From assembly GCF_000427095.1 (NCBI RefSeq), contig NC_021487.1, forward strand, positions 2,625,325-2,689,324: a stretch of 64,000 nt of DNA. The letters are read 5' to 3'. The translations under genes were made by a program, and so were the position numbers. This DNA is from Chthonomonas calidirosea T49 (GTDB lineage Bacteria > Armatimonadota > Chthonomonadetes > Chthonomonadales > Chthonomonadaceae). The notes beneath the pieces were generated by a model. It was not told where the DNA came from and ran no database searches. It saw only the letters and a program-made list of their open reading frames with translations. Below are positions 39,045-46,582 of the stretch, one piece after another; positions within the stretch are counted from its first letter, which is position 1, and every line of letters begins with the position of its first letter.

Positions 39045-39845
39045 TTATCTTAATGAGGTCTGATAGATGCCGATAATGCGGTCGGCAGCCGCATAGGTGC
39101 TATCGCTAATGCGCTCTCTACGGACGATAGTGCCATCGGGGCGGGTGAAAGTACGATAGGTAATGACTCGGTAGCCGGGCACTCCGATGGAAAGGAGTCG
39201 CGCATGCAGACCATGCCCTCGGCTGTTATTAGATAGTATCATCGTTTTACGCTGTGGTTGTGTGGTAGAGAGGATCTGGGTTTCCACGTGCGCTTGGAGA
39301 GTCGGTTGCTTTGGGGCCCAAAAGCTTGCCTCTAGTGTGTCCTGGGTAGCTCGGCACTCGATACGAACGGGCCATGGATAGGGGTTTTTGAAGCGCAGAT
39401 CAATGATCGTTTGTGCCACGGCGGCATCTCTCCCCGGCGGCACGTATTCCGGACAGAAGTGATGCGGGTGCCGTTCCACAATCTGCATGCCGGCAAGGAG
39501 GGCTGCATTGTAGAGTGTGCTGGATGTTTGACACACCCCTCCCCCAACCGCGTTGACGAGCTCCCCATCGTAACTCACTGGTGCCTGCACGTAGCCATGG
39601 TCTGCCGACCAAGAGCCGACGCGTTTATCAAAAGAGAAAAGGCCTCCTGGTGGCACCACCGCACCGTTAACGGCCCATGCGGCGAGGCGGGCGTTTCGAC
39701 GCTGTGAGGGGCTTCTGCCGCGCAGGCTGCTGACATATCCTGCAATACGGACCTCCCTAGGTGGGGATGTGGCGGCGATCTGCAAAAAGCCGTAACCGCT
39801 TGCCAACGCAAACAGGCCAAGCCCGAGGGCCTCTGTCCACCGCAT
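39045..39845 (-). CDS. VanW family protein
   Basis: 266 residues. One N-terminal membrane helix or signal (7-25) is followed by the VanW domain. Characteristic segments are NGAVVPPGGLFSFDKRVG, GGGVCQTSSTLYNAALLAGM and ERHPHHFCPEYVPPGRDAAV. The biochemical role of VanW is not settled; it is an envelope protein, first found in a vancomycin-resistance cluster and widely present without it. Its ATG at 39845 overlaps the alpha-2-macroglobulin stop, so the three genes from 46332 to 39045 form one coupled unit. Confidence 0.9.
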   Translation of the reverse strand: MRWTEALGLGLFALASGYGFLQIAATSPPREVRIAGYVSSLRGRSPSQRRNARLAAWAVNGAVVPPGGLFSFDKRVGSWSADHGYVQAPVSYDGELVNAVGGGVCQTSSTLYNAALLAGMQIVERHPHHFCPEYVPPGRDAAVAQTIIDLRFKNPYPWPVRIECRATQDTLEASFWAPKQPTLQAHVETQILSTTQPQRKTMILSNNSRGHGLHARLLSIGVPGYRVITYRTFTRPDGTIVRRERISDSTYAAADRIIGIYQTSLR

Positions 39846-42800
39846 TATCGTACCTCCACACGTTCTGAGCCGGTTTCAACGTTTGTATCTGGGTCGTACA
39901 TTGCTTGGAGCCGAGTGGGCAAGGCGGTGAAACGGCCAGCCGTCTGGGCTCGCAGGTGATAATCGATGACATGCTTCCCCTTCGATAGGGAACGAATAAA
40001 GAAGGTGAGCCTGTCATCACGGATATCCATGCTAGAGAACCAGTAGTCCCAGTCGCCTTCCACATCGGCCGTGCCGCGCTCTGTAACCTCTAAACCGGCC
40101 GGTAAGGGGTCTTCCATGAGCACGTAGCTCATGTCCTTTGGCACCACAAAGCTAAGGCGCACCAGAATCGACTCGTTGGGGGCAAAGCGATCGTTGGTCG
40201 GGATCAGCTCGCCTTTGTCGGAGAGGCGATAATAGTTGCGTGTCAATTGAAAGCCGGGTAGCTTAAGCGGGGGCAGCGGCAGATCGTTTGGAGTGGTCTC
40301 AACGCTGCGTACCTCAAGGGTGTAAAAGATCGGGCTGCTGCCTTCAAGTAGCTTTAGCTCTACCGTGTTCTTGTTAAGTTGCAAGAGCCCAGGAGGCACG
40401 GTCACATCGCGCAAAGGCATCTGAGCACTTATGGGAACATGGGCAACAAGGCGGCCGTTCACCGAGATGGCAAGGGTGCCGGTTGGGCTGTGCATCCTTT
40501 TCTGCAGCAGATAGCTGCCAAGAAAACGGATGGCGAGGGCCATGTCGCGCGTGTTCATCCAGTAAGAATCGGCATGTCGCAGCAGAAACCATCGAAGGCC
40601 CGACTCGATCAAGGGGTTTTGGGGGTTGGCTGTGAGAAGCGCCTGTAAGGCTAAGAGTGTTGTGTAGGTTGAATCGGCGTAGAAGAAGCCAGGCACCGTC
40701 TGCCCCTCCCAGTGCATCAGAGCTCCTTCTATTCTTGCGCGACGAAGAAGCGCGTTGAGCGAATCGTTTAGGCTACGACCAAGCGCTTTATCTATTAGCA
40801 CGGTATAGGCTAGGTTTTCTGAGGAGAGGCCGGGAAGGATGAAGTGAGAGCGTGCTTTAGCGACAAGTTCTCGATTGCCGCATTGCAGAAGCACGTAGAG
40901 GACGAAGGGCTGGACATCGAGAGGGGTTTTGGGCAACATAGCAATAGCCGCCTTAGCACCGCTATCTATGACCTGCTGAGCCACAGGATAGCCGTACTTC
41001 ATGGCGAGTAGAAGCGATTCGAGCGCATAGGCGGTCATCCAGGGGTCGTCGTTGTCATACTGCCACCAGCCCCAAGCACCATCATCGTGTTGTAGGCGGT
41101 AGAGGCGCGCAACGTTTTCCTGAATGGCGGAGTTCATAGCGGGCGAAGCGCTCAAACCAAGCCGCGGCAGCGTTTTGGAGGCCACCAAGTTGGCAATAAG
41201 GCCACTTGCCGTCTGCTCCACACAGCTGTAGGGATAGGCACTGATTGCGTCCACGCTGTCGCTCAAGGCGGAGGCCAACGAGGGAATGAGGTGTACCTTC
41301 ACCTGAGTGGCCGAGAGCACTGTTTGAGGGTTGAGGCGAAACACCTCAACCTGCGGGTTACCGGCACCGACCTCACCGGAATAGGATGCGAGCTGGGTGC
41401 GGCCGAAGGGACGAACGGTGAGGGGCAGTTCAACGCCATCGTTAAACGACGGGCCACCGGTGGAGGTGGGCAGTGTCCAAGCAGTGGCCGTAAGCTTTGC
41501 CGAGCCGAACAAGGGGGCTGTAACCTGCCAGGAGAGTGTGGCCTGTTGGGCGTTCTCTATATGCAGCTGCTGTTGGACAGCTCCTTGAATTTGGAGGCCT
41601 TCTGCCTGTAGACGTACGATGACGTTTTGGGGTAGGCCTGTGTCGTTGCGTACGCTGGTCGTTACGGTGGCCTGGTCGCCTTGGGTAAGAAGACGAGGAA
41701 GTTCCATTTGCAACAGAAACGGCTTCGAGACTTGGATTTTGCTTATCTGCCAGCCGAACTGGGTGCTCATGGTTTGGGCGATGGCGGTTGCCCGCCATGT
41801 GGTGAGGTTATCTGGCACGGCGAAGGAAACAGTGGCATTGCCCCTGGAGTCGGTTAGCACGTCGGGTGCCCAAAGAGCGGTATCGGCGAACTTACGGCGT
41901 ATCTGAATGGTGCTCGCTGCTTTCTGCTCGCTGCCTAACGTGACGGTGTCGTTAGAGAAAGAGGTGGTCACCGAGTTCTGGCGATAGGGATAGAAGGCTC
42001 GATAAACGATATCGGGCGATTCCTCCTGAAGCTTAAAGATGGCCTCATCCACAACGGCAAAGGACAGATCGCTTTTTACCGGTCTTCCATGAGCGTCGGA
42101 GACGTGAATGTGATAGGTTACACGGCTACCGGGCAGATAGAGCGGGAGATGGTCGCCGTAGGAGGGGTGATCGGGTGTTAGGGTAACAAAAAGGCGTTTA
42201 TCTGGAACGGGAATACGTACGGAGATGCTGTTGTTGCCCGAAGCTTTAGCGCCAAGATAGCAAGCGGAGATAAAGACGTTAGGCCCGTACTCCTTGAGAA
42301 TGGGAATGGGCACCACCAGGCTATGTTGAGACATAGCCACGGTAAAGGTGCGATAGATGCGATTCCCTTCTAAGGTGATAAGCACCTTGCTCGGCACAAT
42401 AGGGCAGACGAGTAAAAGCTGTGCCGTTTCGCCTGGAGTGTAGGCGCGCTTATCGGTGAGGAGAGTGGGATCGGTGGAAGTAAAGGAAGTAGACCCTTCG
42501 TAAGATGCATCGTACACCTCGATGCTATCGGTGGTTTCGATGGAACGGCCTTTGGCGTCACGGGTGCGTAAAACGAGTTGGAGACTGCCAGCGTGCGGCG
42601 GTTGAAAGGTGAAGACAGCACGACCCAGGGCATCGGTGGTAGCATGTAGGGTTGTCCAAAGGTAGCGATGGTAGTCCGAATAGTTTCCCAACTTTTCGTA
42701 AGCAAGTTCAAGGGTTACCGGCTGCTGAGGAACGGCCTGCTGTTGCCAGGTATGCACCGTTGTCAAAACGCTGATGGACTGGCCTGGTAAGCAGAAATAG

Positions 42801-44641
42801 CCTGTGGGCTGCACATCCAGCGCGTAGTCGCCTGAGACCACAGGCACCTGGCATCGCTGCTCCTCTTGGCGGTTGTTGACGGTGACGGTAACATCAAAAT
42901 CCGCGATCTCGCGTTGGGGCAGAAACGCGAAAGAGTGGGTGGGCTTGGTTGGTACGCTGATAACCGCGTCGCCGTTCGAGTCAAGAGTCGTTTGTCCTTC
43001 CTGTTCTAGGCTGCCATAATAGCCTTCCCTTTGCGCCTCCCCCTCATCAGGCGAGGCTGGGAAAATGTCGTATTCATCCATGCTTTGTAGGTTACTCTGG
43101 TTAAACACCTGATAGGAGACAACGGCGTTGGCCAGTGGCGCTCCATAAAAGTAGGAGGCATGGACGTGGAGGCGAATGGGCTCGCCTCGCACATAAAGCG
43201 GTCGCTCTGGGGTGAGGGTTACCTGGAACTCGGGTTTGCGGTAGGCGGCCACAGCGATATCCTTTGTATAGCCCGTCACACCGTCGGGCATCTGGATAAA
43301 AAGGGTGTAAGTGCCGGTGGTTGCCTCAATTGGCAGGGTCATTTTGCCGTTAAAAGCGCCGAAGCTGTTGGTATAGAGGGTTTGGCTGTACACTTGAATG
43401 CCTTTGGGATCGTTCATCACCACGGACACGGGCGTATGGGGAGGAGGAAGCCGATAGCTCCAGGCCGAGCCGCCATCTGAGGTGCCAGTTGCCACAGGAG
43501 TTAGCTGGTTGCGACGTGCGATACCCTTAAAGTAGATGGTCTGTCCAGGTCGGTAGAGAGGTCTCTCTGTATAGATACTGACGGTGTACAGGTTGTTGCG
43601 ACTCGAGTTGAAGTTGGCTCCTTTTACGACAACCTCATCGTCGCCTCGTTGTGCGACAAAAAACTGGCTTTCGAGGAACGGGGATTGGGGATTTGTGAAG
43701 AGTGCCAGACCGTTTTGGTTTGTTTGGGTTTGCAGGCGCACTTCGTTTTCATGGTAGCATCGCACCATGCAATGTGGAATCGGATCCCCACTAGGCATAT
43801 CCACCACATAGGCGAGCGTCTGTGTATCGGCCTGTTTAAGCACCATGCCCATGTCGGTGATCTGCAGCCAACCCGCAACGCAATCCTCTTGATGGCGAAG
43901 GCGAAGAAGATACAGACCTGGAGGCAGCGGTGGAAGAGCAAAGCGTTTATAGAAAAAGCCTTCCACGTCGGGCTTTCCAATGGCCACCTCTTTCTCTAAA
44001 ACGAGTTTGGGGGTGGGCATTGTTGTGGGGTGTAGGAGGGAAGCCAGATAGTGCGTCGTGGAGATGGTATCTGCCGCGCTAAGAGCGTCTAGCGCCGAGG
44101 CAAGTTGCTTATTTTGCAGGATTTGCGACAGTTTTGTGCGATAAACTTGCACATGGTACGAGTCCTTATCTAGCGGAACTCTGTCGCTTACGTAGCCACG
44201 CACGGCGAATCGGCCTTGCTCTTTGGTGCCAAAGACCCTTTGGCGCTGCACTATCTCAAAACGGGAGAGGCTGCGCTGTAAAAATAGCGTGACCGGGGTA
44301 AGCGATCCCTCCCCCACATGGATGCGACTTATCTGGATGCTATGGGCTGGCGTGTCGGCGGAGACATCGTAATCTCCGGTGGGCACGCGCGAGAGAAGGA
44401 ACTTGCCATGTAGATTGCTGAGGGTACGCAGCTGATGGCGATAAGGGTTGTTGCCTGCAGGTGTGAGTACCACTTCGGCCCCAGCAATCGGTTTATGAAG
44501 GTCATTTAGCCAGACGGTTCCGGTAACCCCTCCTATAGGCGTATCTTGGTAGATGCGATAGGAGAGGCCAAGCCCTATGAAGGCGAGCGCGAACACAATG
44601 GGCAGGAGATGCCAAAAGGAAGAGGGTTGTTTCGTTTCCAT
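39845..44641 (-). CDS. Bacterial alpha-2-macroglobulin family protein with thioester motif
   Basis: About 1598 residues from the ATG at 44641, which has GAGGAG 7 bases ahead; an ATG at 44656 that overlaps the upstream stop has no such site. A membrane anchor (about 9-28) is followed by a carboxypeptidase-regulatory-like beta domain (about 33-105), then a chain of MG domains with the MG3-type ERPLYRPGQTIYFKGIARR, the family core, and a thioester domain with Cys1140-Val-Glu-Gln1143 (YSCVEQT). Such proteins trap proteases in the periplasm. In many Proteobacteria the partner is PBP1C; here it lies instead between a 16-17-helix membrane protein and VanW. Confidence 0.92.
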   Translation of the reverse strand: METKQPSSFWHLLPIVFALAFIGLGLSYRIYQDTPIGGVTGTVWLNDLHKPIAGAEVVLTPAGNNPYRHQLRTLSNLHGKFLLSRVPTGDYDVSADTPAHSIQISRIHVGEGSLTPVTLFLQRSLSRFEIVQRQRVFGTKEQGRFAVRGYVSDRVPLDKDSYHVQVYRTKLSQILQNKQLASALDALSAADTISTTHYLASLLHPTTMPTPKLVLEKEVAIGKPDVEGFFYKRFALPPLPPGLYLLRLRHQEDCVAGWLQITDMGMVLKQADTQTLAYVVDMPSGDPIPHCMVRCYHENEVRLQTQTNQNGLALFTNPQSPFLESQFFVAQRGDDEVVVKGANFNSSRNNLYTVSIYTERPLYRPGQTIYFKGIARRNQLTPVATGTSDGGSAWSYRLPPPHTPVSVVMNDPKGIQVYSQTLYTNSFGAFNGKMTLPIEATTGTYTLFIQMPDGVTGYTKDIAVAAYRKPEFQVTLTPERPLYVRGEPIRLHVHASYFYGAPLANAVVSYQVFNQSNLQSMDEYDIFPASPDEGEAQREGYYGSLEQEGQTTLDSNGDAVISVPTKPTHSFAFLPQREIADFDVTVTVNNRQEEQRCQVPVVSGDYALDVQPTGYFCLPGQSISVLTTVHTWQQQAVPQQPVTLELAYEKLGNYSDYHRYLWTTLHATTDALGRAVFTFQPPHAGSLQLVLRTRDAKGRSIETTDSIEVYDASYEGSTSFTSTDPTLLTDKRAYTPGETAQLLLVCPIVPSKVLITLEGNRIYRTFTVAMSQHSLVVPIPILKEYGPNVFISACYLGAKASGNNSISVRIPVPDKRLFVTLTPDHPSYGDHLPLYLPGSRVTYHIHVSDAHGRPVKSDLSFAVVDEAIFKLQEESPDIVYRAFYPYRQNSVTTSFSNDTVTLGSEQKAASTIQIRRKFADTALWAPDVLTDSRGNATVSFAVPDNLTTWRATAIAQTMSTQFGWQISKIQVSKPFLLQMELPRLLTQGDQATVTTSVRNDTGLPQNVIVRLQAEGLQIQGAVQQQLHIENAQQATLSWQVTAPLFGSAKLTATAWTLPTSTGGPSFNDGVELPLTVRPFGRTQLASYSGEVGAGNPQVEVFRLNPQTVLSATQVKVHLIPSLASALSDSVDAISAYPYSCVEQTASGLIANLVASKTLPRLGLSASPAMNSAIQENVARLYRLQHDDGAWGWWQYDNDDPWMTAYALESLLLAMKYGYPVAQQVIDSGAKAAIAMLPKTPLDVQPFVLYVLLQCGNRELVAKARSHFILPGLSSENLAYTVLIDKALGRSLNDSLNALLRRARIEGALMHWEGQTVPGFFYADSTYTTLLALQALLTANPQNPLIESGLRWFLLRHADSYWMNTRDMALAIRFLGSYLLQKRMHSPTGTLAISVNGRLVAHVPISAQMPLRDVTVPPGLLQLNKNTVELKLLEGSSPIFYTLEVRSVETTPNDLPLPPLKLPGFQLTRNYYRLSDKGELIPTNDRFAPNESILVRLSFVVPKDMSYVLMEDPLPAGLEVTERGTADVEGDWDYWFSSMDIRDDRLTFFIRSLSKGKHVIDYHLRAQTAGRFTALPTRLQAMYDPDTNVETGSERVEVR

Positions 44642-44652
44642 TAGGTCGCTCC

Positions 44653-46332
44653 TCATGAGCGTGTAGCCGCTTTGGCTTGTCGGCGCCGATCAACATAACC
44701 GCCCATCTTTCCGGCAAAAGTCGCCAGAATCAGAAAGCCTACAGCTATCAGCACGATGCGTATCTTCTCTTCCCGTGCGAAGTTGGCCACAGGAAGCACC
44801 GTTTGGCTCCATTGCAGCAGGGCGAGCATCGTGGCGATGGAGAAGAGAGTCGGTAAAAGACCGTACAGCGTTGGGTAGACTCCGTTCTGCTGGTCATCTG
44901 GTTGAAACAGCGGCAGAAGCGATGTGAGCGCCAGCCCAAAAAACAGGCTCTCGGCGCACTTGGAGCCGTAGATCAGCAAGACGAGGCCAGGGATGAGCAG
45001 CGTCAGCAGCCCAGTGAGAAATAGATGATAGAGCGGGAGGGTTTTCGTTCGGTCGAAATCTGTCCAAGAGAGCAGATAGCCTTGAACAAGCGGTGGAGCA
45101 AGAACGCCTACTAAAAACCCAAAGAGGGCGTAATGGTCGGCCAGATCGCGGTGCCAGAGGTCTGCACTATAGCGAATGAGGAAGAGGCGGTAGAGGCCTA
45201 GCTGCACGGCAAAGAGACCTATCAGCAGCATCTGTCCAAGCGTTTTCGCTCGGAGGGGATATTCGGCGACACTGGTAGAAGCGATACGCACGGCAATAAC
45301 GAGCCAGCTTCCCATAAGCATCACCCCGATACCAAAGCCCGCCAAAAGTTGGTAGGCGGCCATATATCCAACGAGCACAAGCAATGCGCTCAGCGCGCCT
45401 GTCTGCCAAGCCCATGCCCAAGCCCCATTTTGCGATCGGAGTTTACCGGTTTCGAGCAGCCACCAAACGAGAATCGTTCCAAAGCTGCCGATGGCGCTTA
45501 GGAGGGTGAACGGGGGATGATCCATCTCTTTTGCGCTGAGGAGGTGGCAGGCGCCCATCAGGAGGGCTGCGCCGACCATGGCACGCAGAAGGCGTGTGGC
45601 CTCGGCTTGTGCTGGTAGCTCTTTAAGCCACCGAAGACGGTCGGCCAGCTTCCCCAAACCGGCAAATGGCAGCGAGGCGACAAAGAGCAAGCACAGGGTG
45701 GCATCGGCAAGAGCAAAGCCAATGGCGCTCCAATGGACCGGGATGCTGGAGGCACCAAAGCGAGAGGGGCTGCGGTACTCCCCAGCAACGGCCAACAGCA
45801 GCAAGGCCAAAACAAAGCCCAAACCGGTTATCTGCTGAAGCCAGAGCCTCTGTCCCACCGCGCCCTCTTTCTCGGTCCCAAGGGCAGTGAGAAAAGTAGA
45901 TACAAACCAGCCTATGGCCACCCCGAAATGCACATCGGGCAGGCTATTGCGCATCCAAAGCGACGGCACCGCCATAACGCCCAGCGCGATAAAATAGGGG
46001 ATGGTTGAAGCGGTCGCGCCTACAGCAGCCCCGCTGGTGGGAATGGAAGGCTCTTCGACGGCCGTTTGATACAGAGCCCAAAGCCCGCCCAACGCTCCGA
46101 TGGTGCCCAAGAGGTAGCCGAGGCTGAAGCCATGGGCAAGCGTATGCGGAGTATGTATCGTAAGGCTAACGAGCTCGCCGAGTATCGCAAGGCCAACAGC
46201 GGCCAGCAGATAACGGCGAGGCAGGTGGGGACGTGGGCTTTGCCACCTAAAAATCGGCCATGACAGGAGCAGTGACGCAACGACGCCGATGCCGCAAAGC
46301 CCTAAGGCGCTACGAAATAAAAACAACTCCAT
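44653..46332 (-). CDS. Polytopic membrane protein (about 16-17 helices), uncharacterised
   Basis: 559 residues from the ATG at 46332, which has GAGGAGG about 9 bases ahead; the frame is open to 46395 through a duplicated sequence but without a ribosome site. About sixteen or seventeen hydrophobic segments run through the whole chain, with short loops and a basic C-terminus (GYVDRRRQAKAATRS). I do not recognise the family, and no conserved catalytic or cofactor motif stands out. It is coupled to the alpha-2-macroglobulin gene, whose first codons overlap or closely follow its stop. A role with that protein at the inner membrane is inference from layout only. Confidence 0.72.
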   Translation of the reverse strand: MELFLFRSALGLCGIGVVASLLLSWPIFRWQSPRPHLPRRYLLAAVGLAILGELVSLTIHTPHTLAHGFSLGYLLGTIGALGGLWALYQTAVEEPSIPTSGAAVGATASTIPYFIALGVMAVPSLWMRNSLPDVHFGVAIGWFVSTFLTALGTEKEGAVGQRLWLQQITGLGFVLALLLLAVAGEYRSPSRFGASSIPVHWSAIGFALADATLCLLFVASLPFAGLGKLADRLRWLKELPAQAEATRLLRAMVGAALLMGACHLLSAKEMDHPPFTLLSAIGSFGTILVWWLLETGKLRSQNGAWAWAWQTGALSALLVLVGYMAAYQLLAGFGIGVMLMGSWLVIAVRIASTSVAEYPLRAKTLGQMLLIGLFAVQLGLYRLFLIRYSADLWHRDLADHYALFGFLVGVLAPPLVQGYLLSWTDFDRTKTLPLYHLFLTGLLTLLIPGLVLLIYGSKCAESLFFGLALTSLLPLFQPDDQQNGVYPTLYGLLPTLFSIATMLALLQWSQTVLPVANFAREEKIRIVLIAVGFLILATFAGKMGGYVDRRRQAKAATRS

Positions 46333-46372
46333 AGGTGTGACCCTCCTCTGACACACTGAAAGACAGTGCTTA

Positions 46373-46410
46373 GCAATCCAACAAACTATTTGCAATCCAA
46401 CAAACTATTT
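46373..46410. repeat. Perfect 19-bp tandem duplication
   Basis: The 19-mer GCAATCCAACAAACTATTT occurs twice in direct contact (46373-46391 and 46392-46410). It lies 41 bases ahead of the membrane-protein start, in its likely 5' untranslated region. A small CACTG-aaaga-CAGTG hairpin adjoins it. Confidence 0.9.
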
Positions 46411-46474: not shown

Positions 46475-46582
46475 AGCGCCAACTTACTTGTAGATGAGAT
46501 TATTATAACAGAGTGATTAGTGGTTGTCAACGAAGTTTTTGGGCTTTAAAATAGTGGGAAGTAGGTTGTTGAGGTTGTTTCT

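Follow-up and report, generated by a model that had tools for sequence, protein, structure and literature searches.

An alpha-2-macroglobulin, a VanW protein and a predicted non-catalytic relative of membrane-integral pyrophosphatases in a gene unit conserved across Armatimonadota

Gene layout and recurrence of the unit

Three genes encoding a many-helix membrane protein, an alpha-2-macroglobulin (A2M) and a VanW protein run without gaps, and in this order, along the minus strand from position 46332 to 39045 of the window, the 64,000-nucleotide stretch of the Chthonomonas calidirosea T49 genome analysed here (host genome G000, 3.44 Mb in a single contig). Their layout is as follows.

46502..46530, minus strand: sigma-70-like promoter match, TTGACA-17-TATAAT with an extended -10, 12/12, a consensus match only
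44653..46332, minus strand: membrane protein gene, ATG at 46332, stop at 44653, 559 aa, GAGG 5' of the start
39845..44656, minus strand: A2M gene, 1603 aa from the first ATG, 1598 aa from the ATG at 44641
39045..39845, minus strand: VanW gene, 266 aa, with an N-terminal transmembrane (TM) helix, VanW domain and C-terminal G5-like domain

The membrane protein and A2M genes overlap in an ATGA and the A2M and VanW genes meet in a TAATG, so that the preliminary description, in which the genes were tied by overlaps, is borne out. The alternative A2M start at 44641 lies five codons downstream of the first ATG and has the better AGGAG spacing; the thioester cysteine earlier numbered Cys1140 is counted from this second ATG, and is the same residue as Cys1145 counted from the first. 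The promoter match lies 170 bases 5' of the membrane protein gene and is the sole strong candidate, a consensus scan having returned no strong sigma-70-like match within the three-gene unit. The presumed leader between this match and the membrane protein gene contains two tandem copies of a 19-nt unit, with one mismatch between them (46370-46407).

A search with the single membrane protein sequence found it in 29 of 201 Armatimonadota genomes, with ORF maps showing the three genes to recur, and a 32-member profile found it in 88 of the 201. Among the 83 genomes with a strong match, the membrane protein lies immediately 5' of A2M in at least 69, VanW immediately 3' of A2M in at least 70, and all three genes stand in order in at least 55, these counts being lower bounds obtained by crossing the positions of membrane protein profile matches with those of A2M and VanW profile matches. 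Many Armatimonadota assemblies are broken, and in G001, G008 and G126 the contig ends at the membrane protein. Fourteen of the 83 genomes carry the membrane protein apart from A2M, several of them at contig ends, and in G119 the order is A2M-VanW-membrane protein. Linkage is retained among membrane proteins that have diverged to 15-32% identity, and the 4-base overlaps recur in many genomes. The gene order, which the preliminary description had proposed to seek in relatives, thus proved phylum-wide, and the contrary outcome, an order conserved in no relative, did not occur.

Since flanking genes vary between related loci, the neighbouring sedolisin and LacI regulator are placed outside the unit. 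The suggestion that the system guards against the sedolisin found no backing, as none of 28 related loci taken from other genomes contains a relative of the window's sedolisin. Upheld, on the other hand, was the proposal of a separate unit lacking PBP1C, in that its order recurs across the phylum and neither of the host's two transglycosylase ORFs lies near either of its two A2Ms; adjacency to pbpC, a common and not strictly defining criterion, is therefore not seen here. One of these ORFs (L035, 823-3048) has, by eye, a long multi-TM N-terminus and no obvious C-terminal transpeptidase domain. The host's second A2M (1552 aa) has the motif CFEQ, and the 798-aa ORF that follows it (both within L064, 6227-13297) appears by eye to combine an alkaline-phosphatase-type domain with TM helices and is not PBP1C.

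The membrane protein and membrane-integral pyrophosphatases

No Pfam or NCBIfam entry matches the 559-aa membrane protein, only stray single matches are found among its 32 relatives, and the PDB contains no sequence relative. The preliminary description, which called it unrecognised, was accurate as regards these family databases, but fold and profile comparisons relate the protein to membrane-integral pyrophosphatases (M-PPases). An AlphaFold2 model built on a 17-sequence alignment (mean pLDDT 82, pTM 0.88) was read as 17 helices, agreeing with the earlier estimate of 16-17, and all 33 PDB matches obtained for it by Foldseek at E < 0.001 are M-PPases. VIA-align superposed the model upon the Thermotoga maritima M-PPase with Z 34.0 and an rmsd of 2.9 Å over 492 of 559 residues. 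A corresponding relation emerged at the profile level, where hhalign aligned the family collinearly with M-PPases, scoring 97-111 (in one comparison, E 4e-11 to 5e-13), the M-PPase profile comprising 19 canonical proteins from this phylum (out of 20 loci, L166 having yielded no usable protein). No reversed, column-shuffled, MurJ or Nuo profile scored above 22, and among 25 other multi-TM ORFs the highest score was 37.

A chance match between helix bundles was considered and excluded, the best other fold giving a Z of 6.7 against 34 and control profiles staying at or below 22. The Pfam family of the pyrophosphatases, PF03030, does not itself detect this homology. When the family HMM was run in whole-genome searches, its weak non-member matches within the phylum were canonical M-PPases in all five cases checked; outside Armatimonadota, 28 searched genomes yielded no full-length member and four weak matches, two of them canonical M-PPases. 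As judged from the predicted structure and the profile alignments, then, the membrane protein shares fold, homology and, as read, a 17-helix layout with M-PPases, from whose canonical representatives in the phylum it differs in being about 200 residues shorter. The host also encodes a canonical M-PPase (G000:C1:1234765-1236906). The feature may be described as follows.

44653..46332, minus strand: predicted non-catalytic relative with the M-PPase fold, 17 TM helices as read

The resemblance does not extend to the active site. Four signature motifs of M-PPases (DxGADxxGK, NxGDNxGD, D(N/T)AxG and GDTxGDPxK), each found in 13-19 of the 19 canonical proteins, occur in none of the 32 members, and their positions fall on deletions or unmatched columns of the membrane protein in the profile alignment. 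The same alignment hints that ion-gate residues of the inner helices may be lost as well. Conservation appears instead on the other side of the membrane. Under a topology inferred by adopting the M-PPase arrangement, with the N-terminus outside, cytosolic loops average 1.25 K+R and periplasmic loops 0.50, in keeping with the positive-inside rule, and the periplasmic side is the better conserved (0.401 versus 0.250, p 6e-34). Conserved residues on this predicted face include R382 (97%), R520 (88%), K458 (84%) and Y401 (88%), and the sole strictly invariant residue across the 32 members is Gly334. With every catalytic motif tested missing and conservation shifted towards the predicted periplasmic face, the family is read, from its sequences, as a non-catalytic relative of M-PPases. 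A bolder and rather improbable extension is that it represents a branch of the M-PPase superfamily that is not a pyrophosphatase, having lost the cytosolic site and gained a periplasmic working face, and that it might arm the A2M trap and the VanW cross-linker by transporting, sensing or transmitting force.

The A2M and VanW proteins and their pairing in other phyla

The features that bear on the predicted activities of the two anchored proteins are these.

42029..42463, minus strand: A2M bait-region domain, aa 732-876, PF07703 E 6.7e-13
41213..41224, minus strand: thioester motif CVEQ, residues 1145-1148, Cys1145 (1140 from the second ATG)
39462..39533, minus strand: putative catalytic segment of VanW, Cys105 (39531-39533) to His128 (39462-39464)

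Pfam domains of the A2M comprise A2M, MG2, the bait region (A2M_BRD) and bMG10, each above the Pfam cut-off, together with TED (E 1.3e-6). A CarboxypepD_reg-like domain is also present, and the N-terminus bears a TM anchor, with no nearby cysteine for a lipid anchor. The protein thus carries the marks of a type I A2M (CXEQ within TED, a bait region, MG/bMG domains), and protease trapping is predicted from these; having the thioester, it does not belong to the type II class of the mag operon. The C.EQ pattern is retained in 20 of 22 A2Ms of the module and lost in two (FVDE in L036, SVEQ in L040). Among the closest PDB relatives are YfhM and the A2M of entry 4u48, and NCBIfam S-layer-protein models give weak matches far below cut-off (E 0.0009 and 0.004). 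A FastTree phylogeny of HMM-aligned C-terminal columns, in which the long branches of YfhM and of the host's second A2M are unsure, groups A2Ms largely by partner, those linked to the membrane protein clustering together (support 93) along with a single unlinked row.

Two known A2M systems invite comparison. In the type I A2M-PBP1c pair of Escherichia coli, yfhM-pbpC, a thioester A2M likewise stands beside a peptidoglycan-building enzyme (PMC5764988), whereas here VanW takes the place of PBP1C, a TM anchor that of the lipoprotein anchor, and an M-PPase-fold protein is added; the A2M itself is placed far from YfhM, whose long branch is unsure, in the fast tree. In the type II operon magABCDEF of Pseudomonas aeruginosa, too, the A2M (MagD) is encoded with a TM-bearing protein, MagB, by which it is localised and stabilised (PMC5764988). 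MagD, however, is devoid of a thioester, MagB has just one TM helix, and the operon consists of a different set of genes.

Pfam recognises the VanW domain (PF04294, E 7e-46). The model (pLDDT 93) has a C-terminal part matching G5 domains, and this G5-like fold stands in place of a PG4 peptidoglycan-binding domain, which Pfam does not find in the protein. Work of 2024 established that the VanW family contains L,D-transpeptidases, which carry a Cys-His-small residue triad (reviewed in PMC12729407; PMC11986978), although some VanW proteins show no such activity (PMC12729407). C105 and H128, invariant in sets of 18 and of 27 aligned VanW proteins, are the putative catalytic pair. The Clostridioides difficile enzymes LdtCd4 and LdtCd5 similarly combine a VanW domain, conserved Cys and His and a TM anchor, the present protein differing from them in its lack of a PG4 match, its G5-like C-terminus and its place in an A2M operon.

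The pairing of A2M with VanW extends to several other phyla, a point that, together with the predicted pyrophosphatase kinship of the membrane protein, the preliminary description had missed. When the genome collection was scanned with an A2M profile and neighbouring genes with HMMs (phyla of MAGs as deposited), A2M was found adjoining VanW in Melainabacteria (Vampirovibrio, Obscuribacter), Omnitrophota, Geobacterales/Desulfuromonadales and Spirochaetes, and also in a single MAG of Pseudomonadota and several of Bacillota, VanW lying now on one side of A2M, now on the other. The gene 5' of A2M outside Armatimonadota usually encodes a short protein that bears an AMMECR1 domain (PF01871) and a single TM or signal segment. 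Secreted or anchored proteins of this kind separate A2M from VanW, or adjoin the two, in L087, L127, L128, L078, L133 and others. Since such a protein replaces it in these related loci, the membrane protein is dispensable to an A2M-VanW pair as such. Acidobacterial relatives have a DUF1175 (PF06672) gene 5' of A2M and a six-TM protein 3' of it. In L094 (7109-8182) and other Acidobacteria loci DUF1175 matches NlpC/P60 marginally (E 0.008) and shows a C...H pattern, possibly marking a further wall hydrolase that accompanies A2M. Directly 3' of A2M in the Spirochaete locus L133 (13172-15100) lies a protein with a penicillin-binding transpeptidase domain (PF00905, E 1e-11) and a weak SpoIID match (PF08486, E 0.008), and its counterpart in L125 (13688-15619), also a Spirochaete locus, is similar by eye.

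A proposed membrane-anchored trap and its alternatives

An envelope-defence or repair role, as originally proposed for the unit, is plausible, and the presence of L,D-transpeptidases in the VanW family (PMC12729407) makes it stronger than could have been known from the initial reading. The reading favoured here, with roughly even prospects of being correct, combines an inner-membrane-anchored protease trap with wall cross-linking in a periplasmic complex for which the M-PPase-like protein serves as platform. All three proteins would face the periplasm, A2M and VanW being each anchored by a single helix and the platform presenting its conserved outer side. Bait cleavage would expose the A2M thioester and the protease would be bound covalently, while VanW, replacing the PBP1C of classical A2M operons, would cross-link or repair peptidoglycan as an L,D-transpeptidase. 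The M-PPase-like protein would hold or position both partners, possibly in a role analogous to that of MagB, localising and stabilising the A2M. Precedents for both aspects exist in the A2M-PBP1c repair hypothesis and in the stabilisation and localisation of MagD by the TM-bearing MagB (PMC5764988). Counted against this trap-and-platform arrangement are the two thioester-less A2Ms of the module, the lack of L,D-transpeptidase activity in some VanW proteins (PMC12729407) and the substitution of an AMMECR1-domain protein for the membrane protein in related loci of other phyla.

The same two A2Ms, by implying that some species can do without covalent capture of proteases, lend themselves to a different and unlikely explanation, in which the unit builds or anchors a surface structure, with A2M as a large thioester protein in a structural or adhesive role, VanW fixing A2M or a partner covalently to peptidoglycan, much as specialised L,D-transpeptidases do with outer-membrane proteins, and the M-PPase-like protein aiding export or assembly. 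L,D-transpeptidases are able to tether proteins to peptidoglycan (PMC12729407), and the weak S-layer matches of the A2M would also fit. However, the known tethering enzymes belong to the YkuD family, tethering by VanW being unreported in the literature examined, and nearly all members retain the bait region and thioester that a trap predicts. Quite unlikely, too, is that the M-PPase-like protein is an active machine on the periplasmic side, be it an ion-gated transporter, a sensor or a handler of lipid-linked wall precursors, fuelling or signalling to A2M and VanW. Its full 17-helix architecture exceeds the needs of an anchor and its conserved Arg, Lys and Tyr residues on the predicted periplasmic face could be understood in this manner, yet the tested catalytic motifs are gone and strict invariance is confined to Gly334, with no visible set of acidic or nucleophilic positions that is invariant. 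That the three envelope genes are merely co-inherited with no functional coupling is very improbable; genomes in which the membrane protein lies apart from A2M and the changed order in G119 would be expected on such grounds, but linkage outlasts extensive sequence divergence, the short overlaps recur, and pairs of A2M and VanW, in both relative orders, turn up in several further phyla.

To our knowledge, no M-PPase relative with a different function has been reported earlier. A literature search covering few subscription journals found no report of A2M together with VanW or AMMECR1, nor of other M-PPase relatives. As far as searched, then, the theme of an A2M coupled to a wall enzyme is already known, while the VanW partner and the putative non-catalytic M-PPase relative are undescribed in the literature covered, and the phylum-wide unit points to an undescribed envelope-protection system. 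For the M-PPase fold, a scaffold kept while its catalytic site is lost and its opposite face conserved makes the conversion of an ion pump to another use testable. Uncharacterised VanW proteins gain a context, and the link between A2M and wall enzymes is widened from PBP1C to VanW in several phyla, an extension that speaks for the long-standing view of protease trapping as working hand in hand with repair of the wall.
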